This document shows positions 1,481-35,835 of a stretch of 38,494 nt of DNA, one piece after another (within the stretch, counting starts at the first letter, position 1; the number at the start of each line of letters is the position of its first letter). The notes beneath the pieces were generated by a model. That model was not told the DNA's origin. It worked only from the letters and a program-made list of their open reading frames with translations, and did no database searches. Source of the DNA: Gemmatimonadota bacterium (GTDB lineage Bacteria > Gemmatimonadota > Gemmatimonadetes > Longimicrobiales > Gaopeijiaceae). The position numbers were made by a program, and so were the translations under genes. The stretch lies in NCBI GenBank assembly GCA_022826005.1, contig JAJDVT010000120.1, positions 1-38,494 of the forward strand, given 5' to 3'.

Positions 1481-4400
1481 ATGCTCAATCACCTTGACCC
1501 CCGCCAGATCACCATCGGAGACCGCCGGGCCAATCTCTACCTTGGGAACGGCCCGCTCGCGCTGGAAGTCGTGGAGATTCCGGCCGCCGGCCGCTTGGGG
1601 CGTGCTGCCCTCACGGCATTGCTGAGGGAGCGGGCGGCTGGCCGGGCCGCTCCCGTTCTGATCGTCGCGCCGTGGGGCGCCGGGCGGGCGGCAGTGTGCG
1701 GCCCGACCGAAAGCATTCCGATGGTCCTGCGGGACATTTCGCTGAGCCAGATAGAGGCCGTGTGCCGCAGTGCACTTGAAGCGGACGGACGGCACGCGGC
1801 GATCCGGCGTCTCCATCAGCTTCTTCCGCAGCTGGACGGACGGGTTCCGGGGCTGCGCAACGGAGGTCTCTTTGCGATGCAGGAACTCGAACACGGAGTC
1901 CCGGCGCGCGGAGACTGGATGCTGGCGACCTCAGAGGCTCGTGCGCTGCGGACGCTCCGGGGGCGCGCGCTGATCGAAGGTCTCCGCTTCACGACCCAGG
2001 AGCTGCCCGGACCTGCGATTCTGCTTGTGGCCGGAGACCGCAAGACCGCGGTGGCCGTCCTTCTGGACCGGCCCGACGAAATCGACTCCGCGAGCCCGAG
2101 GTTCGATGGCACCTCTCCCGTCTCGTACGCACTGGCTCAGGCCGACCGCGAGAATCTGGACTGGGTGGTCGCCGCAGCAGGGGCTACCCTTCGGCTTTAT
2201 CCGGCCAAGCTGGGGGTTGGCACGGGCCGCCGTGGCCGGTCCGAAACGTTCGTCGAGATCAACCTCGATCTGCTGTCAGGCGACAACGCCGGATACCTCT
2301 GGCTTCTGTTGTCTGCTTCGGCACTGTCGGATGACGGAACGGTCCACGAGATCCTGGCAAGGAGCGAGGACTATGCGGCTGACCTGGGCCGGCGTCTTCG
2401 CGAGCGGGTCTACCGCGAGGTCATGCCATCGCTTTCCGGCGCCGTCTTCGCCGCAATGTCGCCGCGGCCCGGCTTGGACCCGCTGAAAGAAGCGTATCAG
2501 GCGGCGCTCTACATCCTCTACCGGCTGCTGTTCGTAGCGTATGCGGAGGACCGGGACCTGCTTCCGCTGCACGCCTCGCCGAGCTACCGGGAACACTCGC
2601 TCAAGCGGATGGCCCAGCGTCTCGCGGAGGCGCGGTGGAAGGGCGTCGCGTTCGGTGACCAGGACTTCTACTGGTCCGAGGCCACACAGGTCTGGAAGGC
2701 GGTGAACCGAGGCAATCCCGAATGGGGTGTCCCTGCGTACAACGGCGCGCTGTTCGCCTCCGAGGCCTCCGTGTCAATACTCGGGGCATGGATCGCGGCC
2801 ATCTCGCTGCCGGACCGCAAGTTCGCCGGAGCGCTCGCGGGACTTCTGCTCGACCAGACGCCGGAAGGAGGGGAAGGGCCGGTCGATTTCCGGTCGCTCG
2901 GCATCCGCGAGTTCGGGACGATCTACGAGGGCCTGCTCGAGAGCGAATTGTCTCTGGCCGAAGCGGACCTGACGGTGGACGCAAAGACCGGCGCCTACCT
3001 GCCCGCTCGTCCCGGTGACGCGGTCGAGGTGAGCGCAGGCGAGGTCTATCTTCACAACCGCTCCGGCGCCCGGAAGTCCAGCGGGTCCTACTACACCAAG
3101 TCGTTCGCCGTCGAGCATCTGCTTGACCGGGCGCTCGAGCCCGCGCTCAGAGAGCATCTTGAACGTCTGGACGGCATGACGGACCGGGAGGCGGGACGCC
3201 GGTTCTTCGAGTTTCGCGTCGCCGACATCGCGATGGGCTCCGGTCATTTCCTGGTCGGTGCGGTGGACCGCATCGAGCGGCGGCTTGCCAACTATCTGGC
3301 CGACCGGCCGCTGCCGGACGTGAGGGAGGAACTGGCGCGACTGCGCCGGACCGCCGAGGACCGGCTGGGTGGCGAGTGGTCCGGTGAGGCGATCGAGGAC
3401 ACGCAGCTTCTGCGCCGGCAGGTGGCGCGGCGCTGCATCTTCGGCGTGGACATGAACCCGATGGCGGTCGAACTGGCTCGGCTGTCACTCTGGATCCACA
3501 CGTTCGTGCCGGGTCTGCCTCTCTCTCTGCTCGATCACAACCTGGTGCGCGGGAACTCGCTGGTCGGAGTGGCGACGTTCGACGAAGCGTCCGAACTGTT
3601 CGAGACGAGCGGCACTCTCTTTTCGGTCGTGGCCTCCGAGCGGCTCGCTGACATCCGGAAACCGCTCGGCAAGCTCGCCCGGCTCACCGACGCCAACGAC
3701 GCCGAGATCCGCGAGGCGCGGGAGATCTGGAAGGGGATCCGGCGGAGGATGGAGCAGGAGCGGGAGCTTTTCACGCTGCTCGCGGCCTCACGGACGAACA
3801 GCGACATACGCGCCCAGATTGCGCAAGGGACGATCGCCACGCGCTGGGAGCAACAGGGCGACATCTTTCGGGCCGAGTGGATGGACAAGGCGCAGCAGGA
3901 ACTCGAAGGGCTCGACGTGCTCCACTTCCCGCTCGCGTTCCCGCACGTCTTCCTCGGCGACCGTAGCGGGTTCGACGTGATCCTCGGCAATCCGCCGTGG
4001 GAGAAGCCGATGATTGAAGAGCACGGCTTCTGGGCCCGGCATTTTCCGGGGCTGCGCTCGCGTCCGCAGCGGGAGGCGGAGATCCTCACGGAGCAGTATC
4101 GGACGGAACGCCCCGAGCTTGTTACGACGCTCGAAGAAGAACGGCGGAAGGCGGATCGCCTCCGCGCCCTTCTGGTGGCGGGTGCCTACCCCGGCATCAG
4201 TGCGGGCCACCCGGATCTCTACAAGGCGTTCGTGTGGCGGTTCTGGGACCTTGTGTCGCCGGACGGCGGGCGGATCGGCGCCGTGCTGCCCCGCTCCGCG
4301 CTGGCCGCCAAAGGTGGCGACGTGTTCCGCAAGCGGATCCTCCAGCAAGCCGAGGCCGTGGACCTGACGATGCTGGTGAACAACCGTGAGTGGGTGTTCC

Positions 4401-5485
4401 CGAACGTCCATGCGCAGTACACCATCGGCCTCACAGCCATCACTCGCGGGAAGGGCGGTAGTGAGTGCGAACTTCGGCTGAGCGGACCGTTTGCGAACCT
4501 GAACCGATTTCGGGCCGGTGCCGGGAAGGAGCCGGTCAGCTTCCGCGCCCGCGAAGTCGAGGCATGGAACGACACCGCCTCGATCCCGTTGCTCCCGTCG
4601 GACGAGTCGGTGGAGGTGTTCGCGCAACTGCGCAGAAGTCCGCGGCTGGACTTGAACGACGGCTCCGGGTGGAGAGCCAGACCGGTGCAGGGAGACCTCA
4701 ACTCCACGACCGGCAAGCCGTACATGGATCTAGTCTCGAAGGACTGCCCCCAAGGCTTCTGGCCGGTCTACAAGGGGGCGTCGTTCGACCTGTGGACCCC
4801 GGACACGGGGACCTACTACGCGTGGGCGGACCCGAAAACGGTGCTGGACCACCTGCAGGCGAAGCGGAAGCGTGCGAACAGGCGGTCCGCGTTTGCGGAG
4901 TTCGACGAGGCTTGGCGGGAGGATGCTGCGACCTTGCCCTGCCTGAAGTCGAGGATCGCTTTCCGCCGTATTGCGCGAGCGACCGATAGTCGAACCGTTC
5001 GCGCCTCCCTTGTTCCACCAAACACATGCCTCACGGATGTCGCACCTTACTTCCTGTGGCCGCGAGGGAAGGAAAAGGACGAGGCGTACCTGCTTGGGAT
5101 CCTCAGTTCCATCCCCCTCGACTGGTATGCCCGACGCTTCGTGGAAACGCACGTCGATTATCATGTACTGAACCCGTTGCCGGTTCCCCGGCCGTGCCAC
5201 CAGAATCCGCTTCGGAACCGCATCATCGCGCTTGCCGGTCGGCTTGCGGCGACGGACGATCGCTTCGCGGACTGGGCCGAACGGGTCGGCGTGGATTGTG
5301 GCTCACTCGAATCGGACGAGAAGGAAGACCTGATCTGTGAACTCGACGCCGTGGTGGCCCGCCTCTACGGCCTCACCGAGTCGCAACTGGTCCACATCTT
5401 CCAGACCTTCCACGAGGGCTGGGACCACGAGGAGCGGCTGCGGGCCACGCTGGCTCACTTTCGGGCGTGGATGGGTGACCGATGA
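1481..5485 (+). CDS. Eco57I/PglX-type N6-adenine DNA methyltransferase, large
   Basis: This is a predicted SAM-dependent adenine methylase of a restriction-like system. From ATG 1481 (MLNHLDPRQITIG) it has 1334 residues. The frame stays open back to 1217, but that part overlaps the previous gene, so 1481 is preferred even though no Shine-Dalgarno site precedes it. The SAM-binding motif I is DIAMGSGHFL (about residues 582-591), followed by FGVDMNPMAVELARLSLW. The catalytic motif IV is NPPW (837-840), the adenine-N6 form. The roughly 550-residue N-terminal part and the C-terminal part after residue 1050 flank the catalytic core; in this family the C-terminus usually carries target recognition. 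Size and layout match Eco57I-class, PglX and DISARM DrmMI-like enzymes. The stop overlaps the next ATG (ATGA, 5482-5485), so it is translationally coupled to the helicase. Confidence 0.92.
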   Translation: MLNHLDPRQITIGDRRANLYLGNGPLALEVVEIPAAGRLGRAALTALLRERAAGRAAPVLIVAPWGAGRAAVCGPTESIPMVLRDISLSQIEAVCRSALEADGRHAAIRRLHQLLPQLDGRVPGLRNGGLFAMQELEHGVPARGDWMLATSEARALRTLRGRALIEGLRFTTQELPGPAILLVAGDRKTAVAVLLDRPDEIDSASPRFDGTSPVSYALAQADRENLDWVVAAAGATLRLYPAKLGVGTGRRGRSETFVEINLDLLSGDNAGYLWLLLSASALSDDGTVHEILARSEDYAADLGRRLRERVYREVMPSLSGAVFAAMSPRPGLDPLKEAYQAALYILYRLLFVAYAEDRDLLPLHASPSYREHSLKRMAQRLAEARWKGVAFGDQDFYWSEATQVWKAVNRGNPEWGVPAYNGALFASEASVSILGAWIAAISLPDRKFAGALAGLLLDQTPEGGEGPVDFRSLGIREFGTIYEGLLESELSLAEADLTVDAKTGAYLPARPGDAVEVSAGEVYLHNRSGARKSSGSYYTKSFAVEHLLDRALEPALREHLERLDGMTDREAGRRFFEFRVADIAMGSGHFLVGAVDRIERRLANYLADRPLPDVREELARLRRTAEDRLGGEWSGEAIEDTQLLRRQVARRCIFGVDMNPMAVELARLSLWIHTFVPGLPLSLLDHNLVRGNSLVGVATFDEASELFETSGTLFSVVASERLADIRKPLGKLARLTDANDAEIREAREIWKGIRRRMEQERELFTLLAASRTNSDIRAQIAQGTIATRWEQQGDIFRAEWMDKAQQELEGLDVLHFPLAFPHVFLGDRSGFDVILGNPPWEKPMIEEHGFWARHFPGLRSRPQREAEILTEQYRTERPELVTTLEEERRKADRLRALLVAGAYPGISAGHPDLYKAFVWRFWDLVSPDGGRIGAVLPRSALAAKGGDVFRKRILQQAEAVDLTMLVNNREWVFPNVHAQYTIGLTAITRGKGGSECELRLSGPFANLNRFRAGAGKEPVSFRAREVEAWNDTASIPLLPSDESVEVFAQLRRSPRLDLNDGSGWRARPVQGDLNSTTGKPYMDLVSKDCPQGFWPVYKGASFDLWTPDTGTYYAWADPKTVLDHLQAKRKRANRRSAFAEFDEAWREDAATLPCLKSRIAFRRIARATDSRTVRASLVPPNTCLTDVAPYFLWPRGKEKDEAYLLGILSSIPLDWYARRFVETHVDYHVLNPLPVPRPCHQNPLRNRIIALAGRLAATDDRFADWAERVGVDCGSLESDEKEDLICELDAVVARLYGLTESQLVHIFQTFHEGWDHEERLRATLAHFRAWMGDR

Positions 5486-8400
5486 GCCACCCGGAATTCG
5501 TTGACAACTTCGACGGCAACACGCTCGACCGAGCGCTCCGGGAACGTCTCGACCACCTGCTCGGCACTCTCCGCGAACCGCCATCGGTGTTCATCGCGAC
5601 AGGCTACTTCAACCCGGGAGCATTCGGCCGGCTGGCCGATCTGCTCCGGCGCACATCGGGCGTGCGCCTTCTGCTGGGCGCCGAACCGCTGCCCGCCGCC
5701 AGGCTGCCCGAGCGCCGTCTGGGCGATCCGCGGGGCGAGCGATACGAGAAGAGGCTGGCGGACGACGAACTCGACGGCGCGGAGCGAAAACTCAGGCGGG
5801 ACCGCGACCGCCTTCCGTTCTCCGAGCCGAGTCATGCCGCAGTGCGCGAACTGCTGGACTTCCTGGACTCGGGCAAGATCGAGGTGCGCCGCTACGAGCA
5901 CCGGTTTCTGCATGGCAAGGCGTTCCTCTTTTCCGGCAAGCAAGGGGTGCTCGCCGGATCGTCGAACTTCACGCTTGCCGGGCTCACATCGAACCTCGAA
6001 CTCAACCTCGGCCAGTACCAGCCCGGCGTCGTTGCAAGGGTCGAGGAGTGGTTCGACCGGCTTTGGAACGACGCCCGTCCCTACGACCTTGCCGCCATCT
6101 ACCGGGAGCAGTTTGCCGAGCACCCGCCCTACCTGATCTATCTGCGGGCGCTCTGGGAGCGGTACGGGAAGGAACTCGAAGAGGAGGCCGGCGACTCTGG
6201 CCGGATCCGGCTCACGCGCTTCCAGACCGACGGCGTGTTCCGGGCGAAGCGGATTCTGGATCAGTACAACGGCGTTCTGGTGGCCGATAGCGTTGGGCTC
6301 GGGAAGAGCTTCATTGCGGCCGAAATCTTCACCGAGGTCATCGAGCGGAACCGCCAGCGGGCGCTCCTGATCGCGCCCGCCCAGCTCCGGGACGGGATGT
6401 GGAACGGGTTCAAGAACCGCTACCAGATCGGCATCGAGGTCGTGTCGTTCGAGCAACTGGCCGGCGACGCGCAGTTGGGCCAAGGGGACGGGACGGCCCT
6501 GGGCGCCAGCATCGACGAGTATTCGCTCGTCGTGATCGACGAGGCGCATGCCTTCCGGAACGCCGACACCAAGCGTGCGCGCGCGCTCCGGCACCTGCTG
6601 CGCGGCGATCCTCCCAAGAAGGTGGTCCTGCTCACTGCGACGCCCGTCAACAATTCCCTTTGGGACCTGTACGATCTTCTCGCCTACTTCGTCGGCCACG
6701 ACGCGGTGTTTGCCGACCGGGGCATCCCCTCGCTCAGGGAGCGGTTCCGCGAGGCCGACAGAAAGGACCCGTTCACGCTCAGCCCGGACACGCTGTTCGA
6801 CATTCTGGACGCAACCACAGTCCGGCGGACGCGACACTTCGTTCAGCGGTTCTACCCGAACGACAGCTTTCGGCTTGACGATGGCACCGAGGTCACCATC
6901 CGCTTCCCGGACCCGGTCGTGTGCTCGCGGAGCTACGATCTGGACGATGTGCTTCCCGGGTTCTTCGACGAGTTCGCCGAGATTCTGGACTCCAGGGTCG
7001 GCCGGCCGAAGCTGACCATGGCGCGGTACTGGCCGACCCGGTATCGCCGCGAGGGCGGTCCAGCCGCCCGTGAGACCGCGCTGGTGGGCCTGATTCGCTC
7101 TGGGCTGCTCAAGCGGTTCGAGTCATCAGCCCGTGCGTTTGTGCGGACCGTGACCAGGATGGTGGTGGCGCATGACGACTTCGTACGTGCGGTCGAAGCC
7201 GGGGTGATTCCGTCCACCGATACGCTGAGCGCTCTGCGCGAGGCCGACTCCGACGAAGCGTGGGAGGAGCTTCTCCGCGAGGGCGTGCCGATCGAGGACG
7301 ACCTCGACACCGACCGGCTCATCGAGGACGTGCGGTCCGACCGCGCGCTTCTCGAATACCTCCGCGATCGTGCGTCCGCCGTACGGGCGGAGAACGATCC
7401 CAAGCTCGGGCTTCTCGTAGACGAACTCGCGGACATCGCCGCGGAGGCCCGGCGTGAGGGCATCTCGGAGCAGGACACGCGCAACCGGCGCAAGGTGCTC
7501 GTGTTCTCCTACTTCGGCGATACCGTAGAATGGATCATGGAACGCCTGCGCTCGGTGGTCGACGCCGATGAGCGGCTTGCCTGCTACCGGGGCCGGATCG
7601 CCGGCGTGCGCGGCCGAGAACCGCTTGATGGGGTCACGCGCGCCGATGCGGTGTTCGGCTTCGCGCCGGAATCCACGGAAGCCCCGCCCAGCCGGGCCGG
7701 CGACATCTACGACATTCTGGTCACGACCGACGTGCTGGCCGAGGGAATGAATCTCCAGCAGTGCGGCCGGATCATCAACTACGACCTGCCGTGGAATCCC
7801 ATGAGGCTGGTCCAGCGCCACGGGCGCATCGACCGCATCGGCAGCCCTCACGAGAGGGTGTATCTGACCTGCGTGTTTCCAGACCGCCAGCTCGAAGCCC
7901 TTCTCGCCCTCGAGGACCGCATCCAGCGAAAGCTGGCGCAGGCGGCGGGTTCGATCGGACTCGATCAGATCGTCATTCCGGGCGCGGCATACACGGACCA
8001 CGTCTTTGCGGATGAGCGCAACCGGATCCGGGCGCTCCGGGAAGGCGATGCCTCGATCTTCGAGCGCGGCGGCGAAGGGGTGCATGCGCACAGCGGCGAG
8101 GAATACCGGCAGGAGCTGCGCAAGGGAATCGAACGATGGGGCGAGCGGATCCGGAACCTTGCATGGGGCGTGGGCTCCGGGTTCGTAGGCGGAACCCGCA
8201 CCGGCCACGTCTTCTGCGCTCGCGTCTTCGACCGGGTGTTCATGCGGTTCGTGCCCGAGGACCCGGACGCCGAGATCGAGCGTGAAACGCTCACCTGCCT
8301 CGGGGTACTCTCGTGCACCGAGGACACGGAACGCACGCTGCCGGAGGCCTTTGTGGAAGGCGCGTTCGGTGCTTGGGAACGTGCCAGGCGCGACATATAC

Positions 8401-8754
8401 GACGAATGGATGCGTGCCACCGATCCGGCCACACTCCAGCCTCGAATCCGCCCGCTGTTCCGGGTCGCCGCCAACCATGTTCGCCTGCACCCGGCCGACG
8501 GGTTGTCCGTCGAGGATAGGGACCGGGTTGCCGATGCCCTCGAAGCACCTTGGGGCATCCGCCAGGAGCGCCGGCTCCGGGACGTGTTCGAGCCTGACCG
8601 GGTCGACCCGGGCGAGTTGACGCGCAGGATCGCCGAGGTCGTCGCCGAACTCGGACTCCAGCCGTGGAAGCCGCCGGAACCGCTCGATCCCATCGAAGAA
8701 GACGAAATCTGTCTGGTCGTCTGGATGGGGGTGGGTCGCGTGGCGGCCTCGTGA
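5482..8754 (+). CDS. PLD-nuclease/SNF2-helicase fusion, restriction subunit candidate
   Basis: This 1090-residue protein has two parts. The N-terminus (about 1-200) is a phospholipase D-like domain with one HxK motif, HGKAFLF (H144, K146), and the following GSSNFTLAGL (159-168) typical of PLD nucleases. From about residue 240 it is a superfamily 2, SNF2-like helicase: motif I DSVGLGKS (269-276), motif II DEAH (353-356), motif III TATPVNN (near 385), and motif VI QRHGRIDRIG (778-787). All key residues are present. PLD nucleases act as dimers using one HKD motif per chain, so cleavage by a dimer is likely. ATGA overlap with the methylase gene indicates a stoichiometric pair: modification enzyme plus DNA-translocating nuclease. 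The layout recalls the DrmMI/DrmD pair of DISARM class 1, but DrmA, DrmB and a separate DrmC are absent here. Confidence 0.92.
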   Translation: MSHPEFVDNFDGNTLDRALRERLDHLLGTLREPPSVFIATGYFNPGAFGRLADLLRRTSGVRLLLGAEPLPAARLPERRLGDPRGERYEKRLADDELDGAERKLRRDRDRLPFSEPSHAAVRELLDFLDSGKIEVRRYEHRFLHGKAFLFSGKQGVLAGSSNFTLAGLTSNLELNLGQYQPGVVARVEEWFDRLWNDARPYDLAAIYREQFAEHPPYLIYLRALWERYGKELEEEAGDSGRIRLTRFQTDGVFRAKRILDQYNGVLVADSVGLGKSFIAAEIFTEVIERNRQRALLIAPAQLRDGMWNGFKNRYQIGIEVVSFEQLAGDAQLGQGDGTALGASIDEYSLVVIDEAHAFRNADTKRARALRHLLRGDPPKKVVLLTATPVNNSLWDLYDLLAYFVGHDAVFADRGIPSLRERFREADRKDPFTLSPDTLFDILDATTVRRTRHFVQRFYPNDSFRLDDGTEVTIRFPDPVVCSRSYDLDDVLPGFFDEFAEILDSRVGRPKLTMARYWPTRYRREGGPAARETALVGLIRSGLLKRFESSARAFVRTVTRMVVAHDDFVRAVEAGVIPSTDTLSALREADSDEAWEELLREGVPIEDDLDTDRLIEDVRSDRALLEYLRDRASAVRAENDPKLGLLVDELADIAAEARREGISEQDTRNRRKVLVFSYFGDTVEWIMERLRSVVDADERLACYRGRIAGVRGREPLDGVTRADAVFGFAPESTEAPPSRAGDIYDILVTTDVLAEGMNLQQCGRIINYDLPWNPMRLVQRHGRIDRIGSPHERVYLTCVFPDRQLEALLALEDRIQRKLAQAAGSIGLDQIVIPGAAYTDHVFADERNRIRALREGDASIFERGGEGVHAHSGEEYRQELRKGIERWGERIRNLAWGVGSGFVGGTRTGHVFCARVFDRVFMRFVPEDPDAEIERETLTCLGVLSCTEDTERTLPEAFVEGAFGAWERARRDIYDEWMRATDPATLQPRIRPLFRVAANHVRLHPADGLSVEDRDRVADALEAPWGIRQERRLRDVFEPDRVDPGELTRRIAEVVAELGLQPWKPPEPLDPIEEDEICLVVWMGVGRVAAS

Positions 8755-9613: not shown

Positions 9614-11206
9614 TCACCGCTCCCGCGCCAGGGACCTGATCAGCCCGGCGATCATGAACAACAGCACAACGCTGACGGGCAGGGCCGCGGCAATGGCTGC
9701 GGTCTGCAGGGCCTGGAGACCGTCGGTGAGCAGGAGCACGGCGGCCACCACGCCGATGCCGAGCCCCCAGACGATGCGGAAACGCCGAGGCGGATGAGGG
9801 TCGCCCATGCTCAGCAGGGTGGTGATGACCAGCGTGCCGGAGTCCGAGGACGTAACGAACCACGTCACCAGCAGGAGTGTGGCCGTGGCGGACATCGCCC
9901 AAGCGAGCCAGTCGATGTCGCTCATTCGGTCGATGGTCGCGTAGAGCGCGGCTTCGTAATGCGTGTCCCTCACCAGTTCCATGATGCCGGCTGTCCCGAT
10001 GCCGCCCGGGGCGTTGAGTTCCAGATGGATGGCGTTGCCACCGAATATCCCGAACCACAGCAGGGCCAGTCCGGCAGGGACGAACATCACGCCCAGGATG
10101 AACTCGCGCAACGTGCGTCCGCGCGAGATGCGGGCGATGAACGTACCGACGAAGGGCGCCCAGGAGATCCACCATCCCCAGTAGAAGATGGTCCAAACGT
10201 TCTGCCATGCCGCGTACCTCGGCTCTTCCGCGATCCACAGTGACATGGGCACTAGGTGCCACAGGTATTCGGCGAGCGAGGATGCGATGAATCCGGCGAG
10301 CCAGGTGAACGGGCCCAGCATCAGGAAGCACCCCAGAAGGACTATGCTCACGCGGATGTTCCACTCCGACAGGACGCGGATGCCGCGGCTGACGCCGGAC
10401 ACCGCCGACAGGGTGGCCGCCAGCGAGATGGCGGCGATGAGCCAGACCTGCGTGGCGACACCCGGTTCCACACCGAACAGCACGTCCAGACCGGTGGCCA
10501 TCTGGCTTGCTCCGAGGCCCAGGGAGGTAGCGATGCCGAAGACCCCGCCGAACACGGCCAGAAGGTCCACCAGGTGGCCGATGGGACCGTAGATGCGCTC
10601 GCCGACGAGCGGGTACAGGGCGGAACGGAGCGTCAGCGGCAGTTTCTTGCGGAACCCGAAGTAGGCCAGGCACAGCCCGACCACGACGTACACGGACCAA
10701 CCGTGGATGCCCCAATGGAAGTAGGCGACGCGCATGGCGTGCACGGCGCGCGGCTCGTCCAGCGCCACGGCGCCGGCCAGATCGGCGACCGGGTTGTTTG
10801 GGTATCCCGCGCTCTGGCTGATGTCGAAGTAGAAGAGCGGTTCGGCGATGGAGAAGAACAGCAGTCCGATCCCGATGCCGGCCGAGAACAGCATGGCGAG
10901 CCAGGAGGAGGTCCTGAACTCGGGCCGGGAAGCGTCATCGCCGAGCCGGATCCGGCCGAACGGGCTGCACACGAGGAACAGGCAGGCGAGTACGTTGACG
11001 CCGACGACCAGGAAGTAGAACCACCCGAGCGTGCCTTCGATCAAGTCGCGGATGCGATCGAACACGGCGCCGGCGGCGTCCACGTCCCGGATCGTGGCGA
11101 GAACGAAAGCCAGGACGACAGCCTTGGCGGCCAGCGCCATCGAGGGATTCAGCCCCTTCCACGGCCCCGCATCCGCCGTGCTTTGCCGGTGTCGCCCGTT
11201 CCTCAT
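9614..11206 (-). CDS. BCCT-family transporter (betaine/carnitine/choline type)
   Basis: A 530-residue inner-membrane transporter with about 12 membrane segments. Start ATG 11206 is chosen because it includes the family's N-terminal NPSMALAAKAVVLAF segment; ATG 11140 would cut into it. Conserved landmarks include GRIRLGDD, MLFSAGIGIGLLFFSIAEPL and the family signature WGWWISWAPFVGTFIARISR. BCCT carriers import quaternary ammonium or related compounds with Na+ or H+; which substrate cannot be read here. Its start is 29 bp from the stop of the TonB-dependent receptor upstream, on the same strand, so both are probably one transcript and a coupled outer- and inner-membrane route. It ends at TGA 9614-9616. 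Confidence 0.95.
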   Translation of the reverse strand: MRNGRHRQSTADAGPWKGLNPSMALAAKAVVLAFVLATIRDVDAAGAVFDRIRDLIEGTLGWFYFLVVGVNVLACLFLVCSPFGRIRLGDDASRPEFRTSSWLAMLFSAGIGIGLLFFSIAEPLFYFDISQSAGYPNNPVADLAGAVALDEPRAVHAMRVAYFHWGIHGWSVYVVVGLCLAYFGFRKKLPLTLRSALYPLVGERIYGPIGHLVDLLAVFGGVFGIATSLGLGASQMATGLDVLFGVEPGVATQVWLIAAISLAATLSAVSGVSRGIRVLSEWNIRVSIVLLGCFLMLGPFTWLAGFIASSLAEYLWHLVPMSLWIAEEPRYAAWQNVWTIFYWGWWISWAPFVGTFIARISRGRTLREFILGVMFVPAGLALLWFGIFGGNAIHLELNAPGGIGTAGIMELVRDTHYEAALYATIDRMSDIDWLAWAMSATATLLLVTWFVTSSDSGTLVITTLLSMGDPHPPRRFRIVWGLGIGVVAAVLLLTDGLQALQTAAIAAALPVSVVLLFMIAGLIRSLARER

Positions 11207-11235
11207 GGCTCGATGGCCGGGCCGACCCCCGTATG

Positions 11236-13875
11236 TCAGAACGAGACGGTCGCGGTCATGGATATGGTACGGGGTGCGCCGAGCCATGCGGCGTTTTCGG
11301 TGATTGCGGACAGATAGGCGGTGTTGAGCAGGTTGTTCGCCACGATCGAGAACTCGGTGGACCGGAACAGGTCGCTGAGCGCCTCGCCCTGGAAGGTCAC
11401 GTAGGCGTCCACGGTCCAGTAGGCGTCGGTCTGCCAGTCGGCCGTCAGGCTGACGCGGCGCGAAGCCGTGTACTTGGCCGACAGGCCGCCGCCCAGCGGT
11501 CCTTCGCGGTCGAGCGAAACGACCCACAGCCGGGGCGGCACGCCCGTAACGTCGGTGCCGGGCACGATGCCCTGGCTTTCGTCCACGAGCGGATCGTCGG
11601 TCCCGACGTACTTCGAGTCGTTGAGCGTGAGCGCGCTGTAGAGCGACGTGCGGGCCGGCATCGCCAACGTGGCGGCCAACTCGAGGCCGCGCATCTCGAT
11701 CCCGCCCGCGTTGAAGTACGCACCGCCGCCTGGGATGAGGTAGTTGGGGCCTGCGGGGGTCTGCGGGCCGAGGAAGAAGATCCGGTTCTCGAAATCGATC
11801 GTGTACAGCGTGGCGCTGAGCGCGAGCCGCTCGCCGGAATACTGGATGCCGACATCGACGTTCGACGCGGTCTCGGGCTCGAGGGCGTCCAGGCTGCGCC
11901 CCGGCACTTCGAGCAGGATGCTGCCGATCGCGCGGAAGTTCTGGGCGTAGCCCGCGAACAGGTCGAGGCCGTCGAGGGGCGTCTCGTAGGTGACGCCGCC
12001 CGAGAAGAGCAGCTTCGAGTCGGAGTTGACATCAAGCGGCCGGTCGATGCCGAACTGGTCCTCGCGCGACACGGAGACGAGGTACTGCTTGACGCCGCCG
12101 GCCAGTTCGAACGGGCCGACGTACAGCGTTTCCTCGATGTACCACTTGAACACGTTTTGCGGGAAGTCCCATTCGTATTGGTGCCAATAGGGCTGCTCGT
12201 CCCACTTGAAGTTGATCGCGGGGTCCAGAATGCGGTGCCAGTCGCGGCCGAGGTCCCGGCGCGAGCCCTCGTACCAGATGCCCGCGCGCAGCGCGCTGCC
12301 CCGTCCATCCCCGAAGAGCACGGACCACTCGCCGTCCACGTTCATGCCGAGCCGGTCCTTGCCGTAGTGGCTGTGGCGGTACGACTGGACCGCGGATGCC
12401 CCCGGGTGGCACGCCGGGTCGACCTCCGGCCCGCCCGAGCCGTAGTAGTTGAAGATGTAGGACGACGCGCATCCGGGCGTCGGTCCGACGGCCGCGCCGT
12501 TGCCGTCCACGAACCGGATCACCCCGCGCTGGGCACCGCCGCGCACCGGTGCGCGGCCCCCCGCCAGTTCCGACTCCGGTCCCTCCCCGTCGTCCACCAC
12601 GTCGACGATGTAGGGAGGCAGCCAGTCGCCGCGTCCCGAGTTGTGGTGATGGTAGGCGCCCGCGCTCACCGAGATCAACTCGCTGACCGACCAGTCGGCC
12701 TTGGCGTAGGCGAGCGTGTTCTTGCGCCGGGTCTGCCAGCCGGGCCGGTAGAACTGGTTCAGGTAGGGCACGCCCGGCCAGTGGCCGATCAGGCGGTCCC
12801 AGCGCGGGTTGGCCCGGAAGTCGGCCTCGCTGTAGAGCCGCTGGTAGACATCCTCGTGGATCTCGTCGTACGAGAGGTAGCCGGTGAAATCCACCGCTCC
12901 ATGCGAGGACACGATCTTGGCGGCGACGTGCTCGCGCTCGTTTCTGGCCGAGCCCTCCATCCAGTCGGTCGCCTCCTGACGGATTGCGGCGATCCAAGCG
13001 CGCGTCGTGCCGCCGAAGATCGAGCCGGTCTCGACCCGCGCGGCGAACCGCTGGCCCTCGTTCTCGCCGATCGTAACAGATGCCGTGTGGCTCCGCTGCG
13101 CCGCCGGGTCGGCCGTCAGAAAGTTGAGCGTGCCGCCCAGCGCCTCGACCGAGCGCGACGCGATGTCTGCGGTCCCCTGCGACACCTCGACCCCGCCGAG
13201 GTTCATCGGGTCGACGAACCGGCTCGCCTTCGCGCCGCTCCAGTAGTCCGACGTGCCGTTCGGGAACCCGTCGATCGTGGTGCCGATCTGCGCGTCGTTG
13301 ATCGTTGACTGGAACCCGCGCATGACCACATTGCTGGACCAGTCGTCGAAGGAGTACGCGTCCCCCTCCTGGACCGAGACGCCGGGAAGGTTGTCGATCA
13401 CCGAAGTCACGGCCGTAATGCTCGACTGCTGCCGCATCATCGGCTGCGCGACGAAGTTGCGCGCGAACACCGTGGGCTCTTCCGCCACGACGCTGATCGG
13501 ATCCAGCCGGATGGAAGGCTGCAACACGATCCGGACCGTTTCGGCGGCGCCGGCGCGTACGGTGACCTCAATCTCGCGGGCCAGATACCCGAACAGGGTG
13601 GCGGTTACGACGTGGTCGCCGGGCGCCAACCCGGTGAGTTCGAAGCTGCCTTCGGCATCCGTGACGGCCTCCGCATCCGCGCCGGCCGCCGTCACCCGCA
13701 CGCCGGGCATCGCGGCGCCGGACCCGTCCACCACGGTGCCCCGGATCGTTCCCGTCTGCTGCGCGGTCGCCGGCGTCGCGGCCAGCAGCAAAAGCAGGGC
13801 GGCGCGGCCGCAGAATCCGGCGAACAGCTTGCCGGCGCTCCTGCCAAGATCTCGCTGTAAGGTTGGAATCGCCAT
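11236..13875 (-). CDS. TonB-dependent receptor with carboxypeptidase-regulatory-like domain
   Basis: This outer-membrane active-transport receptor has 879 residues. Start ATG 13875 has a good Shine-Dalgarno site (AAGGGAG). A signal peptide ends near ATPATAQQ. Next come a carboxypeptidase-regulatory-like beta-sandwich (GTIRGTVVDGSGAAMPGVRV), a plug domain (VIDNLPGVSVQEGDAYSFDD; VEVSQGTADIASRSVEALGG) and a 22-strand-type barrel, ending in the aromatic residue F (MTATVSF), as barrel proteins of this class do. The length is normal and no break is seen. The next gene, 29 bp downstream, is a BCCT transporter, which suggests a zwitterionic or quaternary-amine substrate for the pair; that is inference. 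A divergent 630-bp gap separates it from the XRE regulator at 14.5 kb. Confidence 0.95.
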   Translation of the reverse strand: MAIPTLQRDLGRSAGKLFAGFCGRAALLLLLAATPATAQQTGTIRGTVVDGSGAAMPGVRVTAAGADAEAVTDAEGSFELTGLAPGDHVVTATLFGYLAREIEVTVRAGAAETVRIVLQPSIRLDPISVVAEEPTVFARNFVAQPMMRQQSSITAVTSVIDNLPGVSVQEGDAYSFDDWSSNVVMRGFQSTINDAQIGTTIDGFPNGTSDYWSGAKASRFVDPMNLGGVEVSQGTADIASRSVEALGGTLNFLTADPAAQRSHTASVTIGENEGQRFAARVETGSIFGGTTRAWIAAIRQEATDWMEGSARNEREHVAAKIVSSHGAVDFTGYLSYDEIHEDVYQRLYSEADFRANPRWDRLIGHWPGVPYLNQFYRPGWQTRRKNTLAYAKADWSVSELISVSAGAYHHHNSGRGDWLPPYIVDVVDDGEGPESELAGGRAPVRGGAQRGVIRFVDGNGAAVGPTPGCASSYIFNYYGSGGPEVDPACHPGASAVQSYRHSHYGKDRLGMNVDGEWSVLFGDGRGSALRAGIWYEGSRRDLGRDWHRILDPAINFKWDEQPYWHQYEWDFPQNVFKWYIEETLYVGPFELAGGVKQYLVSVSREDQFGIDRPLDVNSDSKLLFSGGVTYETPLDGLDLFAGYAQNFRAIGSILLEVPGRSLDALEPETASNVDVGIQYSGERLALSATLYTIDFENRIFFLGPQTPAGPNYLIPGGGAYFNAGGIEMRGLELAATLAMPARTSLYSALTLNDSKYVGTDDPLVDESQGIVPGTDVTGVPPRLWVVSLDREGPLGGGLSAKYTASRRVSLTADWQTDAYWTVDAYVTFQGEALSDLFRSTEFSIVANNLLNTAYLSAITENAAWLGAPRTISMTATVSF

Positions 13876-14506
13876 CGAACTCCCTTTCTGTAACTTGCGT
13901 TGGTGCGGATCCCCCATGGTACGTTGGGACACGCGGGTCGCAAGACCTAATGTAACGCGCATGAAGTGCAGCGCCAGCATCCGGACCGCGCCGGTCGGCT
14001 GTCCGTAATGGTCTCGTCGTAACCTTTCGGCAGACCTGTCTCGCGAGCCGTCGGGGGGGCTTCAGCTTAGGGTGCCGGCGTTGGCCAGAGCAAACTGGCG
14101 GCCTGCGGGACTTACGGTTCCGGGGCGCCGGGGTTACGGGGAAGTCGTGGCGACCCGGCAAGGCAGTCTTGACGGGGGCCGCCGGGCTGGCAGAGATTGG
14201 AGCCGTATGCGAACGAAACGACAGTCTCGCCACCACGGAGGAAGTAGGTTACGATGCTGACGAGGGCGCGGAATGCAACCGCGCGGGAGAGGATGCTCTT
14301 GAAGACCACCGAGTCCGTGGGGGTGCATACGGCCTTCTACCGCACCCCGGGAGATTCTTCCCTTTTGCCCGGACTTTGTGTCGCTGAGCGTAGTCCACGT
14401 CTGGACGGCGCGGCGAATCACCGGTCTCGCCGTTCCGCTCGGCGTCAACAGGCGTGCCGACAAGATCCACATGACGGCGAACTGAACGAAAGGGATTGAA
14501 CCCGGC
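13876..14506. other. Intergenic region between divergent genes
   Basis: This 630-bp gap separates the receptor gene on the minus strand from the XRE gene on the plus strand, so it should hold at least two promoters. Frames across it have no Shine-Dalgarno site, no recognisable domain and skewed composition. I could not place a promoter reliably. Confidence 0.5.
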
Positions 14507-21493: not shown

Positions 21494-22891
21494 GTGGCTG
21501 GACGGCGAGACCGTAGGGTCTTTGAGGCGCGACCGGGCGAGAGTGCGGATCCCGCCGCCTCTGCCAGCGAACCGCCGCAGGGTCGGTCCCTGCTGACGCG
21601 CCGGTCGCTCCTGCGCTCAGGCTTTGCCGCGCTGGCCACTGTTCCCTGGGCGAAGCCGCTGGCGGGTTCCTCTGCATCGGCTCGCCGGAGTCGGCGCGGA
21701 CCTGTCTCCCAGGACGATGAAATCGTGCTGGGCGTATCGGCCGCCTTCTCGGGTCCCTCTCGCGGCTTGGGCACGGAGTTGTATCGTGGTGCGATGGCGT
21801 ATTTCAGCCACGTCAATGACAATGGAGGAGTGAGCGGCCGCCGGATCGTTCTCAAGCTCTACGACGATGGCTACCAGCCCGATGCGTGCGTCGCGAACAC
21901 CATCCGGCTCATGCAGGAGGACAACGTCTTCCTGCTCTTCGGATACGTGGGCACCCCGACAGTCACCCGGGTGTTGCCCCTGCTGAAGAGATTCCGCGAA
22001 CAGCGCGTCTATCTCTTCTTCCCCTTCACGGGAGCGGAGCCACAACGCGAGCCTCCCTACGGCGAGTTCGCCTTCAACCTGCGGGCCTCCTACCGGCAGG
22101 AGACCGCCGGGCTGGTCGACAATTTCGTCCGGATCGGCCGGCGGCGGGTGGCGGTCTTCTATCAGATCGACGCCTATGGACGCAGCGGCTGGGCCGGAGT
22201 GCGAGAAGCGCTGGCGCGGCACGGAGAGACGATCGTGGGCGAAGCCACCTACAGGCGCGGCACGCCGTTCGGCGCGAGCATGAGGCGTCAGGTCGAGATC
22301 CTGAAGTCGCACTCGCCCGACGCCGTGATCTGTATCGGGGCGTACGCCGCGTGCGCGGCATTCGCTCGCGACGCCGTCGATCTGGGGCTGCATGTTCCGG
22401 TGGCCAATCTATCGTTCGTGGGGAGCGAGAACCTGCAACGGACCGTGCGGGAGAGACGCCGGGACCCGGATTCGTACACTCGGTTTCTGGTCAATTCACA
22501 GGTCGTGCCAGCCTACGACAATGCTACGTTGCCAGGCGTGAACGAGTACCATCGGTTGATGTTTCGGTACGATCCGCAACTGCCGGAGGACCTGGAGAGG
22601 CTCACAACAGGTGAATACTATGAACCCCTCGCCCGCGACTTCGTCAGCCTGGAAGGGTTTCTGAACGCGAAGGTAATGACGGAGATCCTCCGGCGCCTGG
22701 AGGGCCGTCTGGACAGATCCCGGCTGGAGGGGGCGGTCTTCGGCGTACGCAACTTGCCGCTCGGCATCGGCGAACGTGTGTCCTTCCGACCCGACCGTCG
22801 GCAGGGAATGCAGAGGGTGTACTACACCGTTGCGGACGGCAGCCACTTCGCGCTCCTTCGGGACTGGGAAGCCAGGTTCGGCGCGTCATGA
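21494..22891 (+). CDS. Periplasmic substrate-binding protein, type I (Leu/amide-binding class), Tat signal
   Basis: The frame starts at GTG 21494 behind GAAAGGGA and has 465 residues. A twin-arginine signal motif TRRSLLRSGF (residues 35-44) is followed by a hydrophobic stretch, so the protein is probably exported folded. The mature part reads as a periplasmic-binding-protein fold type I: IVLGVSAAFSGPSRGLG, FSHVNDNGGVSGRRIVLKLY DDGYQP, NVFLLFGYVGTPT, VAVFYQIDAYGRSG and SPDAVICIGAYAACAAF. These match branched-chain-amino-acid/urea/amide binding proteins. No permease or ATPase genes are nearby. It lies 55 bp upstream of a TonB-dependent receptor, so it may deliver or sense the receptor's substrate. 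Confidence 0.9.
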   Translation: MAGRRDRRVFEARPGESADPAASASEPPQGRSLLTRRSLLRSGFAALATVPWAKPLAGSSASARRSRRGPVSQDDEIVLGVSAAFSGPSRGLGTELYRGAMAYFSHVNDNGGVSGRRIVLKLYDDGYQPDACVANTIRLMQEDNVFLLFGYVGTPTVTRVLPLLKRFREQRVYLFFPFTGAEPQREPPYGEFAFNLRASYRQETAGLVDNFVRIGRRRVAVFYQIDAYGRSGWAGVREALARHGETIVGEATYRRGTPFGASMRRQVEILKSHSPDAVICIGAYAACAAFARDAVDLGLHVPVANLSFVGSENLQRTVRERRRDPDSYTRFLVNSQVVPAYDNATLPGVNEYHRLMFRYDPQLPEDLERLTTGEYYEPLARDFVSLEGFLNAKVMTEILRRLEGRLDRSRLEGAVFGVRNLPLGIGERVSFRPDRRQGMQRVYYTVADGSHFALLRDWEARFGAS

Positions 22892-22946
22892 ACCGAGAAG
22901 TCTGGTTGCGGAAACGCTCCATATGGGAGCAGGAGAGGGGAGTCAG

Positions 22947-25829
22947 ATGGTGAGAAAAGCGGCGGCCATTGCCGGATTCTTCGTACTCACCCAAACGGCT
23001 TCGGCGGCGGCGCAGGGAAGCCTGCGGGGAAGAGTCACCGCGGCAGGCGCGGGTGGTGCCATCTCGGGGGCGCAGGTCAGTCTGTCGGATCTCGAGTTGG
23101 GGGCCTTTACCGGTCCCAGCGGCGCCTACGAAATCGGAGACATCCCGGCGGGCATTCACGACGTTGTGGTCGTACGGATCGGCTACCGGACCGAGCGGCG
23201 CCGGGTGACCGTGGTGGACGGCCAGCCCACCACACTGAACATCGCTCTCGTCGAGGCGACGCTCGCGGTGGAGGGCCTGGTCGTGGTAGGCAGCCGGGCG
23301 CAACCCAGAACGGTCACGCAGTCGCCGGTCCCGGTCGACGTGATTCGTAGGCGCGAGATCATGGCCCAGGGCGACACGGACTTCGCCAATCTGGTGCGTA
23401 ACGTGGTCCCGTCGTTCAATGTGAACGTCCAACCGATCAGCGACGCGGCCACCTTCGTGCGGCCAGCCAACCTGCGCGGCCTCGCCCCGGACCACACTCT
23501 GGTGCTCGTCAACGGGAAGCGGCGCCACCGCGCGGCGGTGATCACCTGGTACGGCAACGGCCTCGCCGACGGCTCGCAGGGTCCGGACATCGCGCTCATC
23601 CCCGGCATCGCGTTGGAACAGGCCGAAGTGCTTCGAGACGGCGCGTCCGCCCAGTACGGATCGGACGCGATCGCCGGCGTAATGAACTTCGTGCTGAGAA
23701 ACGACCGGTCGGGCGGCCTGATCGAGATGAAGACCGGCGGGCACCTGCTCGGCAGGACGAGCGAGCCGTTCGGGGAAGGTTGGATCCCGGGGGACGGAGA
23801 GATGTACGCCCTGTCGGGGAACGTGGGGTTGCCGCTCGGAGAGACCGGCTTTCTGAACCTGACCGGCGAGTACGGCAACACCGGTCCCACAGACCGCAGC
23901 ACACAGCGCGACGATGCCCTTGCGCTGCTGGGTGCCGGCAACACGAGCGTCCGGTCGCCCGCACAGATCTGGGGCTCTCCCGAAGTATCCAACGAGTTCA
24001 AGCTGTGGGCGAACATGGGATACGTTTTCGACAACGACATGCAGGTCTATTCCCACGGCAACTACGTGAGCAAGCAGGTCGAGGGCGGGTTCTACTACCG
24101 TAACCCGGGCACGCGCAGCGGCGTCTTCGGAACCCGTAACGCCGAAGGCCAGCGGATCCTGCTGATCGGCGACATGCTCGACGCGCATGACGGTGTGCTG
24201 GACGGATCGGCGGGCTGTCCCGAAGTGCCGGTCACCGATGACGGGGTGGTGATGGACCGCGGAGCGTTGAACCGGGTCCTCGCCGATCCCGACTGCTTCA
24301 CCTTCCGGGAGCTGTTCCCCGGAGGGTTCACCCCGCAGTTCGGCTCCCACATCCTCGACGCGTCGGCGGTGGCGGGGCTGAAGGGCGGCAGCGGCGGCCT
24401 GACCTGGGACGCGAGCGCAGCGTGGGGCAAGTCGAACCTGGAGTTCTACATGTACAACACGGTCAACGCCTCGCTGGGGCCGGACCAGCCGTGCGCCGAC
24501 GAAAGCAGGGCGCTGTCCTTCGTCGTGCCAGACCAGCCCTGCACCCCCTGGTTCAACCCGGGCACTTACGACCAGCAGGAGGTCAACCTCAACCTGGATC
24601 TGTCGTACGCGCTGAACGAACGGGTCAACCTCGCCGGTGGCGCGGAGTGGCGCAATGAGCGCTTCGAGATCATGCAGGGCAGCACGGAGTCTTGGACCGA
24701 GGGTCCGCTGGCGACGCAGGGCTTCACACCAGGATCAAACGGGTTCACCGGATTCGGACCCCTGACCGTGGGCGACTGGAACCGCAACAACCTCGCCGTC
24801 TACGGCGACATGGAGATCCGGGAACCGGAGGGTGCCTGGACGCTCGGTGTGGCTGGACGGGTCGAGCGGTTTTCGGACTTCGGCACGACCGTGAACGGGA
24901 AGGTCGCGGGGCGGGTGAGCGCGTCGGAGACCCTCGGGCTGCGAGGCAGCTTCAGCACCGGCTTTCGCGCTCCCACGCCGGGACAGCAGAATGCCTTCAA
25001 CATCACGACCATCTATGATCCCGCGATCATGGACCTGACGAACAACGGCACGATTCCGTCCACGTCGCCGCTGGCGTTGAACTTCGGCGGCGAGCCGCTC
25101 AGGCCCGAGACATCCGTCAATCTGGCATTGGGGGCCGTGTACGACGATGGTCCCCTCAGTCTTTCGATGGACTTCTTTCAGGTCCGGGTTTCCGACCGTC
25201 TGACGACCAGCGCGGACAGGACGCTCACCCCTGCGGAGATCGAGCAACTCATTGCCGGGGGCATCATCCGGCCGGGTGGCGTGCTCGCCCGGTTCCGGTT
25301 CTTCATCAACGACTTCGCGACACGGACAAGCGGTATCGACCTGGTGGGTTCGTACGAGATCGAAGGAGCGAGCGGTTCCACCACAACCATCAGCAGCGCG
25401 TGGAACCTGACCCGGACTTCGGTGACGGACTTCAACGAAAAGACCCTCAACTCCGAACGCATCCGGATCCTTCAGGAGGGACTCCCCGACCTGCGCGGCA
25501 ACCTCGCGGTGAACCGCGCCTTCGCCAGCGGGTTGCGCTTCCTTGTGCGCGGCAGCTACTGGGGCGGCTACTACGACGGCGAGCAGCCGTACTACGAGTC
25601 GAATCCGGAGAACACCATCGACTACCCGGCCCGCGTTCTCTTCGATGTGGAGGCGGCCCGCACGTTCGCCCGGCGCTGGACGCTCACGGTCGGCGCCCAG
25701 AACGTGCTCAACACCCACCCGGAGGAGTATCCGGGTGCGGCGGCCGGCGTCGGCAACCGCTTCGGCCAATTCACGCCGTTCGGCTTCAACGGCGGCTTCT
25801 ACTACACGCGAGTGGGATATGGCTGGTAG
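22947..25829 (+). CDS. TonB-dependent receptor with carboxypeptidase-regulatory-like domain
   Basis: Start ATG 22947 follows a strong AGGAGAGGGGA site and gives 960 residues. A signal peptide (MVRKAAAIAGFFVLTQTASA) is followed by a regulatory-like beta-sandwich (GSLRGRVTAAGAGG; YEIGDIPAGIHDVVVVRIGY), a plug (LVRNVVPSFNVNVQPISDAA; LRGLAPDHTLVLVNGKRRHR; EQAEVLRDGASAQYGSDAIA) and a barrel with the late conserved piece RWTLTVGAQNVLNTHPEEYP, ending in Trp (TRVGYGW). All landmarks are intact. It is the second gene of an operon with the Tat-exported binding protein, 55 bp apart. The frame stays open upstream of 22947 but that part overlaps the binding protein and lacks a start site. Confidence 0.95.
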   Translation: MVRKAAAIAGFFVLTQTASAAAQGSLRGRVTAAGAGGAISGAQVSLSDLELGAFTGPSGAYEIGDIPAGIHDVVVVRIGYRTERRRVTVVDGQPTTLNIALVEATLAVEGLVVVGSRAQPRTVTQSPVPVDVIRRREIMAQGDTDFANLVRNVVPSFNVNVQPISDAATFVRPANLRGLAPDHTLVLVNGKRRHRAAVITWYGNGLADGSQGPDIALIPGIALEQAEVLRDGASAQYGSDAIAGVMNFVLRNDRSGGLIEMKTGGHLLGRTSEPFGEGWIPGDGEMYALSGNVGLPLGETGFLNLTGEYGNTGPTDRSTQRDDALALLGAGNTSVRSPAQIWGSPEVSNEFKLWANMGYVFDNDMQVYSHGNYVSKQVEGGFYYRNPGTRSGVFGTRNAEGQRILLIGDMLDAHDGVLDGSAGCPEVPVTDDGVVMDRGALNRVLADPDCFTFRELFPGGFTPQFGSHILDASAVAGLKGGSGGLTWDASAAWGKSNLEFYMYNTVNASLGPDQPCADESRALSFVVPDQPCTPWFNPGTYDQQEVNLNLDLSYALNERVNLAGGAEWRNERFEIMQGSTESWTEGPLATQGFTPGSNGFTGFGPLTVGDWNRNNLAVYGDMEIREPEGAWTLGVAGRVERFSDFGTTVNGKVAGRVSASETLGLRGSFSTGFRAPTPGQQNAFNITTIYDPAIMDLTNNGTIPSTSPLALNFGGEPLRPETSVNLALGAVYDDGPLSLSMDFFQVRVSDRLTTSADRTLTPAEIEQLIAGGIIRPGGVLARFRFFINDFATRTSGIDLVGSYEIEGASGSTTTISSAWNLTRTSVTDFNEKTLNSERIRILQEGLPDLRGNLAVNRAFASGLRFLVRGSYWGGYYDGEQPYYESNPENTIDYPARVLFDVEAARTFARRWTLTVGAQNVLNTHPEEYPGAAAGVGNRFGQFTPFGFNGGFYYTRVGYGW

Positions 25830-35152: not shown

Positions 35153-35166
35153 GGGAGAACCGGGCG

Positions 35167-35835
35167 ATGATCAGGGTGCTACTGGTCGATGACCACGAGG
35201 TCGTGCGTGCGGGTCTTCGCGCCCTGCTCGAGGTGACCGGCCATGTGGATGTGGTGGGCGAGGCGTCGTCGGGCGAAGAGGCCGTGACAAAGACGCGGAC
35301 GCTGGAGCCCGACATCGTCATCATGGATCTCGCCATGCCGGGAATGGACGGGATCCAGGCGACCCGGAGCATCGCCGCGCTCGAACTCGGTACCAGGGTG
35401 CTGGTGCTGACCATCCACGACGAGGACGAGTTCCTTGTGCCCGCCATGGAGGCCGGGGCCGCGGGCTTTCTGAACAAGTCGGCCGCCGACACCGATCTAA
35501 TCGGAGCCGTCGAGGCGGTTGCGCGCGGCCACTCCTACCTGCCGCGCCGCGCGATCGCCCTGATCTCCCGCCACAGGACGGCGAAAGTTTTGAAGGCCGG
35601 CCCGAGGTCCATCGCGACGCTCTCGGAGCGGGAGCGCACTGCGATCGAACTGTACGCGCGGGGCTATTCGGCGAGGGAGGCCGCCGAGGAGCTGTTCGTC
35701 AGTCCCAAGACGGTCGAAGGCTACATCGCCCGCGCGAAGTCGAAGCTGGACCTCAAGGGGCGCCGCGACATCGTGCGCTTCGCGATCGGGGCGGGGCTTC
35801 TTACGCACGAGGGAGAACCCGGCCCCGACGCCTGA
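35167..35835 (+). CDS. NarL/FixJ-family response regulator
   Basis: Start ATG 35167 (MIRVLLVDDHEVVRAGLRAL) has GGGAG at 35153-35157 and gives 222 residues; ATG 35149, which overlaps the kinase stop, would add six residues. The receiver domain has the acidic pair D8-D9, the phosphorylation site D54 (IVIMDLAMPGMDG), a Thr in VLTIHD and the Lys in FLNKSA. The C-terminal LuxR-type helix-turn-helix is LSERERTAIELYARGYSARE, then ELFVSPKTVEGYIARAKSKL. All key residues are present. It is the cognate partner of the kinase just upstream. Confidence 0.95.
   Translation: MIRVLLVDDHEVVRAGLRALLEVTGHVDVVGEASSGEEAVTKTRTLEPDIVIMDLAMPGMDGIQATRSIAALELGTRVLVLTIHDEDEFLVPAMEAGAAGFLNKSAADTDLIGAVEAVARGHSYLPRRAIALISRHRTAKVLKAGPRSIATLSERERTAIELYARGYSAREAAEELFVSPKTVEGYIARAKSKLDLKGRRDIVRFAIGAGLLTHEGEPGPDA

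Follow-up and report, generated by a model that had tools for sequence, protein, structure and literature searches.

The subject of this analysis is a stretch of 38,494 nucleotides, the first 38.5 kb of contig JAJDVT010000120.1 (assembly GCA_022826005.1), which we call the window and whose host genome has its nearest named relatives among the Gemmatimonadota. Within it two long open reading frames (ORFs), here designated MT and SN, follow each other head to tail on the + strand and encode an adenine-N6 methylase and a protein that joins a phospholipase D (PLD) nuclease to an SNF2 motor. MT and SN form a conserved unit with obligate pairing, and we consider it probable, judging from the sequences, that the pair is a self-contained two-gene ATP-dependent restriction-modification (R-M)-like defence system. 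The features on which the argument draws are the following, in window coordinates.

1481..5485, + strand: MT, adenine-N6 methylase of 1334 residues, Eco57I / BrxX (PglX) type, the conserved first gene of the unit.
1481..2380, + strand: N-terminal domain of MT, residues 1-300, mixed alpha/beta by predicted secondary structure and predicted to fold.
3224..3247, + strand: S-adenosylmethionine-binding motif I region of MT, residues 582-589 (DIAMGSGH); D582, G586, S587 and H589 invariant in 23/23 alignment rows.
3989..4000, + strand: catalytic motif IV (NPPW) of MT, residues 837-840; N837 and W840 invariant in 24/24.
4028..5230, + strand: target-recognition region of MT, about residues 850-1250; identity drops to 28% per 200-residue window in the locus comparisons L023/L045 and L033/L042.
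5482..5485, + strand: ATGA start-stop overlap joining MT and SN, seen in the sequence; the junction reads GACCGATGAGCC.
5482..8754, + strand: SN, 1090 residues, PLD nuclease fused to a RapA-like SWI2/SNF2 motor, with a C-terminal alpha+beta region.
5584..6066, + strand: PLD nuclease domain of SN (PLDc_2), residues 35-195, with HGK at 5911-5919 and GSSN at 5956-5967.
6286..7842, + strand: SNF2 motor motifs of SN, namely Walker A DSVGLGKS (6286-6309), DEAH (6538-6549) and motif VI QRHGRIDRIG (7813-7842).

An earlier note on this DNA had proposed that the two ORFs are coupled by an ATGA, and this overlap is indeed present at 5482-5485 and is seen again in many relatives. A GTG at 1217 would be a possible in-frame start of MT further upstream, but the ATG at 1481 is the start conserved in close relatives.

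The coupling of the two genes extends far beyond the window. Conserved two-gene neighbourhoods were looked for, and MT lies upstream of SN on the same strand in all 50 loci with readable ends, with a gap of at most 150 bp in 32 of them. Of 298 genomes of the host phylum, 23 carry SN and 22 carry MT, and every one of the 22 has both (Fisher test 2e-32, not corrected for relatedness), and in the 23rd SN genome the C-terminus of an MT lies directly upstream of SN. A contig scan yielded 41 loci from Gemmatimonadota, Rhodothermales, Planctomycetota, Myxococcota, Zixibacteria, Eisenbacteria, Acetobacteraceae and others, and relatives that are 37-88% identical over their full length occur in many phyla, which excludes chance. 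Moreover, the distances among MT proteins correlate with those among SN proteins (Mantel r 0.82, 0/2000 permutations; r 0.52, 0/2000 permutations in the divergent subset), as is expected of partners that are inherited together. The six best plasmid matches, from two haloarchaea and four actinobacteria, all carry an adjacent MT-SN pair, annotated in RefSeq as 'hypothetical protein' next to 'helicase-related protein' or 'SNF2 family helicase', and on pHLAC01 of Halorubrum lacusprofundi the pair is on its own, flanked by insertion sequences. This plasmid has been lost in H. lacusprofundi ACAM34_UNSW (PMC10544981). Rhodococcus erythropolis R138 and Paenarthrobacter TC1 are examples of cultured carriers. 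The search for a third conserved gene, in which 113 flanking proteins were scanned against PADLOC and Pfam, gave no family present in more than four members.

At individual loci the pair is interrupted or overlapped by other genes. At L013 (2796-10004) SN is intact but MT is split into four pieces, interspersed with DDE and rve transposase genes, and on a Euzebya plasmid (L074, 15608-16456) the end of SN is overlapped by a gene whose annotation is phosphorothioated-DNA-binding restriction endonuclease.

That MT is an adenine methylase with an NPPW motif, as the earlier note had read from the letters, is borne out by its match to Pfam Eco57I (3.8e-16), with the motif at residues 837-840. Among the 25-37 relatives over which residue conservation was scored, D582-x-A-x-GS of motif I is likewise invariant or nearly so. 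The AlphaFold2 model of MT (predicted local distance difference test score, pLDDT, 81.7) aligns with CamA (7lni; Z 26.4, root-mean-square deviation (rmsd) 5.9, 405 residues aligned), with BrxX (9ewz; Z 25.6, rmsd 5.3, 552 aligned, the longest extent among the structural matches) and with the Type ISP enzyme LlaBIII (4xqk; Z 23.1, rmsd 4.8, 405 aligned), and HsdM subunits and LlaBIII/LlaGI are also among the fold matches; these alignments span the methylase core only and say little on the N-terminal domain.

Could MT then be a complete Type IIG enzyme that works alone, with SN as an independent neighbour? The PADLOC model PDLC03620, 'Type IIG restriction enzyme-methyltransferase', matches MT over practically its full length (956 bits, residues 49-1328) and matches its relatives too, which speaks for such an enzyme. 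Type IIG enzymes carry their nuclease at the N-terminal position, however, and in the alignment of relatives residues 1-300 of MT contain neither a conserved PD-(D/E)XK motif nor D...(D/E)xK, while the N-terminal profile, compared with solved structures, found nothing significant by sequence. In addition, no genome of the phylum sample had MT but lacked SN, and the gene order is fixed in 50 loci. We regard a self-sufficient MT as very unlikely and infer instead that its N-terminal domain may be an inactive nuclease and that the working nuclease would reside in SN.

SN matches Pfam PLDc_2 (residues 35-195, 4.2e-11), SNF2-rel_dom and Helicase_C. The proposal that one protein carries both a PLD motif and a complete SNF2 helicase holds as far as the two domains, HGK and GSSN are concerned; the PLD part has to be qualified, in that it contains a single HxK...GSSN motif without the Asp of the full HKD motif, so that an active site would require two copies, as in a dimer. 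The residues that are present are well kept across the relatives (H144 in 35/36, K146 in 34/35 and S160 in 35/36 rows). The motor motifs are invariant in 36-37 of 36-37 relatives, with the Walker lysine K275, DE353-354 and the motif VI arginines invariant or nearly so. The best solved relative by profile is RapA (1.9e-27), and the SN model (pLDDT 84.2) aligns with ISW1 (9jnp; Z 18.1, rmsd 3.9, 396 aligned) and ZorD (8qy7; Z 17.3, rmsd 5.0, 395 aligned) over the motor only, which says little on the PLD domain. The best PADLOC match of SN is C3a139 (HKD+Snf2, 176 bits); the DrmD model gives 155.9 bits, its cut-off of 610 bits lying far above, and NF042964 (phospholipase D-like anti-phage helicase) gives 133 bits against a cut-off of 1100. 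In a helicase tree that took in DrmD, HmaA, BrxHII-like and BR2-like proteins of the same phylum, the SN proteins of the pair form one clade (Shimodaira-Hasegawa-like approximate likelihood ratio test, SH-aLRT, 100), whose sister is a more divergent pair family (L055, L056, L088 and L098; 97). This clade is separate from the DrmD, HmaA and BR2-like helicases, the true DrmD of the phylum being another clade, and two of the best phylum matches of NF042964, themselves below its cut-off, fall in another clade than SN. Nearest to the SN clade and its sister are further PLD-SNF2 proteins, whose linked methylases are of Type III or are different 'Type IIG' ones, a placement that comes from a quick search without bootstrap and includes some long branches.

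These comparisons bear on the idea that the pair belongs to a DISARM class 1, ARMADA or BREX-related system that is reduced or scattered, its other partners acting from elsewhere in the genome. It could draw on the partial matches of MT to DrmMI (221 bits) and of SN to DrmD (156 bits), and on the fact that DISARM class 1 and ARMADA have a BrxHII-like helicase and PglX-like methylase pair in common (PMC12458937). Yet SN stays far under the DrmD cut-off and groups apart from DrmD, HmaA and the BR2-like proteins, and the partners were not found where this idea needs them. The DrmB/YprA marker (MZB/DUF1998, PF09369) has no match in the host genome, and of 27 carrier genomes 15 have matches, none of them near the pair. 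DUF499 (PF04465) has one match in the host, on another contig (C12), and is never linked to the pair in the 27 genomes, some of which have it at other places; matches to PglZ (PF08665) always lie on other contigs or more than 1.5 Mb away. DUF3780 (PF12635) was found in 0/27 genomes, but also in none of the controls. The prospect that close relatives would always sit beside DrmA, DrmB or other partners has therefore not materialised, and the solitary unit on pHLAC01 argues in the same direction. We consider a scattered system quite unlikely.

The relation between the two proteins is best seen where the recognition region of MT has been exchanged. Between L023 and L045 SN is 84% identical, with every 200-residue window at 72% or above, whereas MT is 78-92% identical up to about residue 850, then falls to 28% over 200 residues and recovers at the C-terminus. 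The same drop in MT is seen between L033 and L042, whose SN proteins are 81% identical, and the replaced segment measures 300-400 residues in both comparisons. In BrxX, MmeI and LlaBIII, target recognition lies in the region that matches the exchanged stretch. Since the recognition region of MT was swapped while SN remained unchanged, SN most likely relies on MT for site choice; a partner with its own reading of that sequence would be expected to have changed as well. From these two comparisons we infer that MT probably reads the target sequence and guides SN, as in Type I and Type III systems, where HsdR and Res rely on their methylases for site choice.

Rearrangement affects the same region of MT in other relatives. 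At L015 (3-1750) and L097 (1-7691), both on draft metagenome contigs, MT is interrupted at codon 1133-1145, in its recognition region, by a tyrosine recombinase gene. The two recombinases are 91% identical and share the same junction, and at L097 the part of MT comprising residues 1-1145 is inverted relative to the C-terminal part, which is still joined to SN. Related recombinases lie upstream of an intact MT at L012 (3920-5077) and L017 (3-506). Target switching, insertion or decay are possible readings of a recombinase at this place; the pair may switch its target when the recognition region of MT is exchanged and, in some lineages, when a recombinase rearranges it. In a divergent member, L099 (855-2296), two tandem copies of the recognition-bearing C-terminal segment of MT lie upstream of SN.

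The pair is also found in telling company. More than 400 bp separate MT from SN in 15 of the 50 loci, and the inserts include SIR2-HerA (L045, 4988-9974), PDC-M23AB, a Hachiman-like pair (L023, 2733-9968), PDC-M28BC (L037, 7074-9991), PDC-M68B (L088), PDC-S01 (L092) and, on the opposite strand, a subtilase matching IetS (L031, 6081-9906); further loci with genes in this position are L027 (6482-8428) and L040 (6824-9971). Just upstream of SN, L023, L025, L040 and L045 have in common a gene cluster that includes an AlbA/Schlafen member. Restriction loci are known to harbour nested defence genes; DarTG2, which sits between hsdS and hsdR, is an example (PMC12255303). The known defence genes between MT and SN support the view of the pair as a defence locus by the company it keeps, and new ones may be sought in the MT-SN gap, whose use as an insertion site by other defence genes appears to be undescribed.

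How would such a pair act? The conserved residues of methylase, motor and nuclease in one conserved unit correspond to a Type I/III-like ATP-dependent R-M system. In the course of events that we predict, MT would recognise a DNA sequence via its C-terminal target-recognition region and methylate adenine to mark the host; at unmodified sites it would form a complex with SN, serving as the DNA-reading platform that guides it. The SNF2 motor of SN would then use ATP to pump DNA, and two PLD domains, joined by dimerisation or through colliding complexes, would cut it, which is expected to confer activity against phage. For the cutting step by a PLD-SF2 enzyme SauUSI (PMC7913695) and CglI (PMC5737866) offer a biochemical precedent.

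Several observations weigh against this reading. The closest relatives of the window MT show no sharp swap of the recognition region, clear swaps being confined to the more distant L023/L045 and L033/L042; the PLD motif of SN is single and lacks its Asp; and both genes could move horizontally as neighbours for other reasons. Moreover, parts similar to these can act without sequence-specific restriction in DISARM (PMC9142583). The latter leads to a further alternative, a DISARM-like or BREX-like blocker in which MT marks self and SN senses the structure or replication of phage DNA, with no sequence-guided cleavage. DISARM restricts phage that lack its methylation sites and can dispense with its PLD nuclease (PMC9142583), and the structural match of longest extent to MT is BrxX of BREX. 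SN, however, has conserved nuclease residues of its own and DrmAB-like single-stranded DNA sensors are absent, and the exchanged recognition region of MT is less directly accounted for by a blocker, even though specificity is set by the methylase in BREX as well. We therefore hold such a blocker to be unlikely and prefer the sequence-guided R-M-like pair.

A wider proposal, which we regard as evenly balanced, is that the pair represents a distinct, widespread and unnamed type of R-M system in which a single methylase holds all sequence recognition and guides a translocating PLD-SNF2 nuclease, that it is the minimal form of the helicase-methylase core elaborated by BREX type 3, BR, DISARM class 1 and ARMADA, and that it may switch target by exchange or rearrangement of the MT recognition region. 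DISARM, ARMADA, BR and BREX type 3 all hold a RapA-like helicase and a PglX-like methylase, and the role of this shared pair can be tested with two genes in a version that stands alone and has its own nuclease. In genomes that are scored as having only a 'Type IIG' methylase, an ATP-dependent system of two proteins may be present.

Around the pair, the window gene at 217-1371 upstream of MT has no family match and no counterpart in the loci of relatives. The remainder of the window resembles ordinary chromosomal DNA, with genes at 9617-11527, 11239-13980, 21494-25829 and 33986-35835 for a BCCT transporter, two TonB receptors, a periplasmic binding protein, and a PAS histidine kinase accompanied by a LuxR-type regulator. 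Other helicase-methylase arrangements were encountered as well. On host contig C71 (L054, 1951-8908) a second PLD-SNF2 gene is followed by a different 'Type IIG' methylase (PDLC03601), the opposite gene order, and L057 in a relative is similar. L061 (1734-8109), L062 (2348-8883) and L066 (576-6845) are operons of a methylase, a protein of 180-230 residues, which in L061 has no PADLOC match, and an SNF2 helicase without PLD; their helicases form one clade. In L058 (1722-10590) and L063 (7750-16626) four genes encode an HKD+Snf2-type helicase, a protein of 250 residues, a Type III methylase, for which the match is in L058, and a protein the size of Res (994-998 residues), and in L058 the HxK motif is lost at the aligned PLD position.

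Among named systems, DISARM class 1 (DrmMI and DrmD with DrmA, DrmB and DrmC) resembles the pair in the broad type of its methylase, its RapA/BrxHII-like SNF2 helicase and its PLD nuclease; the pair differs in lacking DrmA and DrmB, in the fusion of PLD to the helicase and in its separate helicase clade. Membership was rejected for want of a linked DrmB (DUF1998/MZB) and on the DrmD score of SN (155.9 bits, cut-off 610). In ARMADA a BrxHII-like helicase adjoins a PglX-like methylase, but a YprA-like helicase is required, whose marker PF09369 is absent near the pair, and the portion of the source drawn on describes no PLD fusion on the RapA-like helicase (PMC12458937); ARMADA was thus rejected too. 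BR Type-2 consists of a DUF499 ATPase, an N6-methylase, an HKD-Snf2 helicase and DUF3780, and its N-terminal HKD/PLD-SNF2 fusion with partner N6-methylase, the predicted restriction effector, is like the pair (PMC12839542). Neither BR Type-2 nor Hma could be assigned, however, as no DUF499 ATPase is linked, and SN reaches 133 bits on NF042964. BREX was rejected as no PglZ is linked to the PglX-type methylase of the pair. A PLD nuclease and an SF2 motor in one chain are also found in SauUSI (PMC7913695) and PbeA (PMC10853773). SauUSI, a Type IV enzyme, dimerises through PLD and, once target recognition has activated it, translocates and shreds the DNA (PMC7913695); different from the pair, it has no methylase and reads modified cytosine via its own SRA domain, while here recognition probably lies in MT. 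Type I, Type III, ISP and CglI/NgoAVII systems share with the pair the combination of methylase or recognition, ATP-driven motor and nuclease. The pair has no HsdS and carries PLD in place of a PD-(D/E)XK nuclease; ISP is a single chain, and CglI/NgoAVII combines PLD and ATPase in two subunits (PMC5737866), PLD being split from the motor in CglI. PADLOC lists PDLC03620 (Type IIG) and C3a139 (HKD+Snf2) as separate entries, and the pair as one system was not found there; nor did the open-licence literature searched, which does not cover REBASE, yield a paper or database that names it. The suggestion of a minimal, little-described defence type survives both refuting conditions of the earlier note as regards the conserved stand-alone pair, whose function is predicted, but is overstated as regards its parts: the PLD-helicase fusion is known from SauUSI, PbeA and Type-2 BR, and each protein has a PADLOC model. 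What appears to be new, as undescribed in the literature searched, is the stand-alone pair as a system, its breadth, the exchange of its recognition region and its role as an insertion site.
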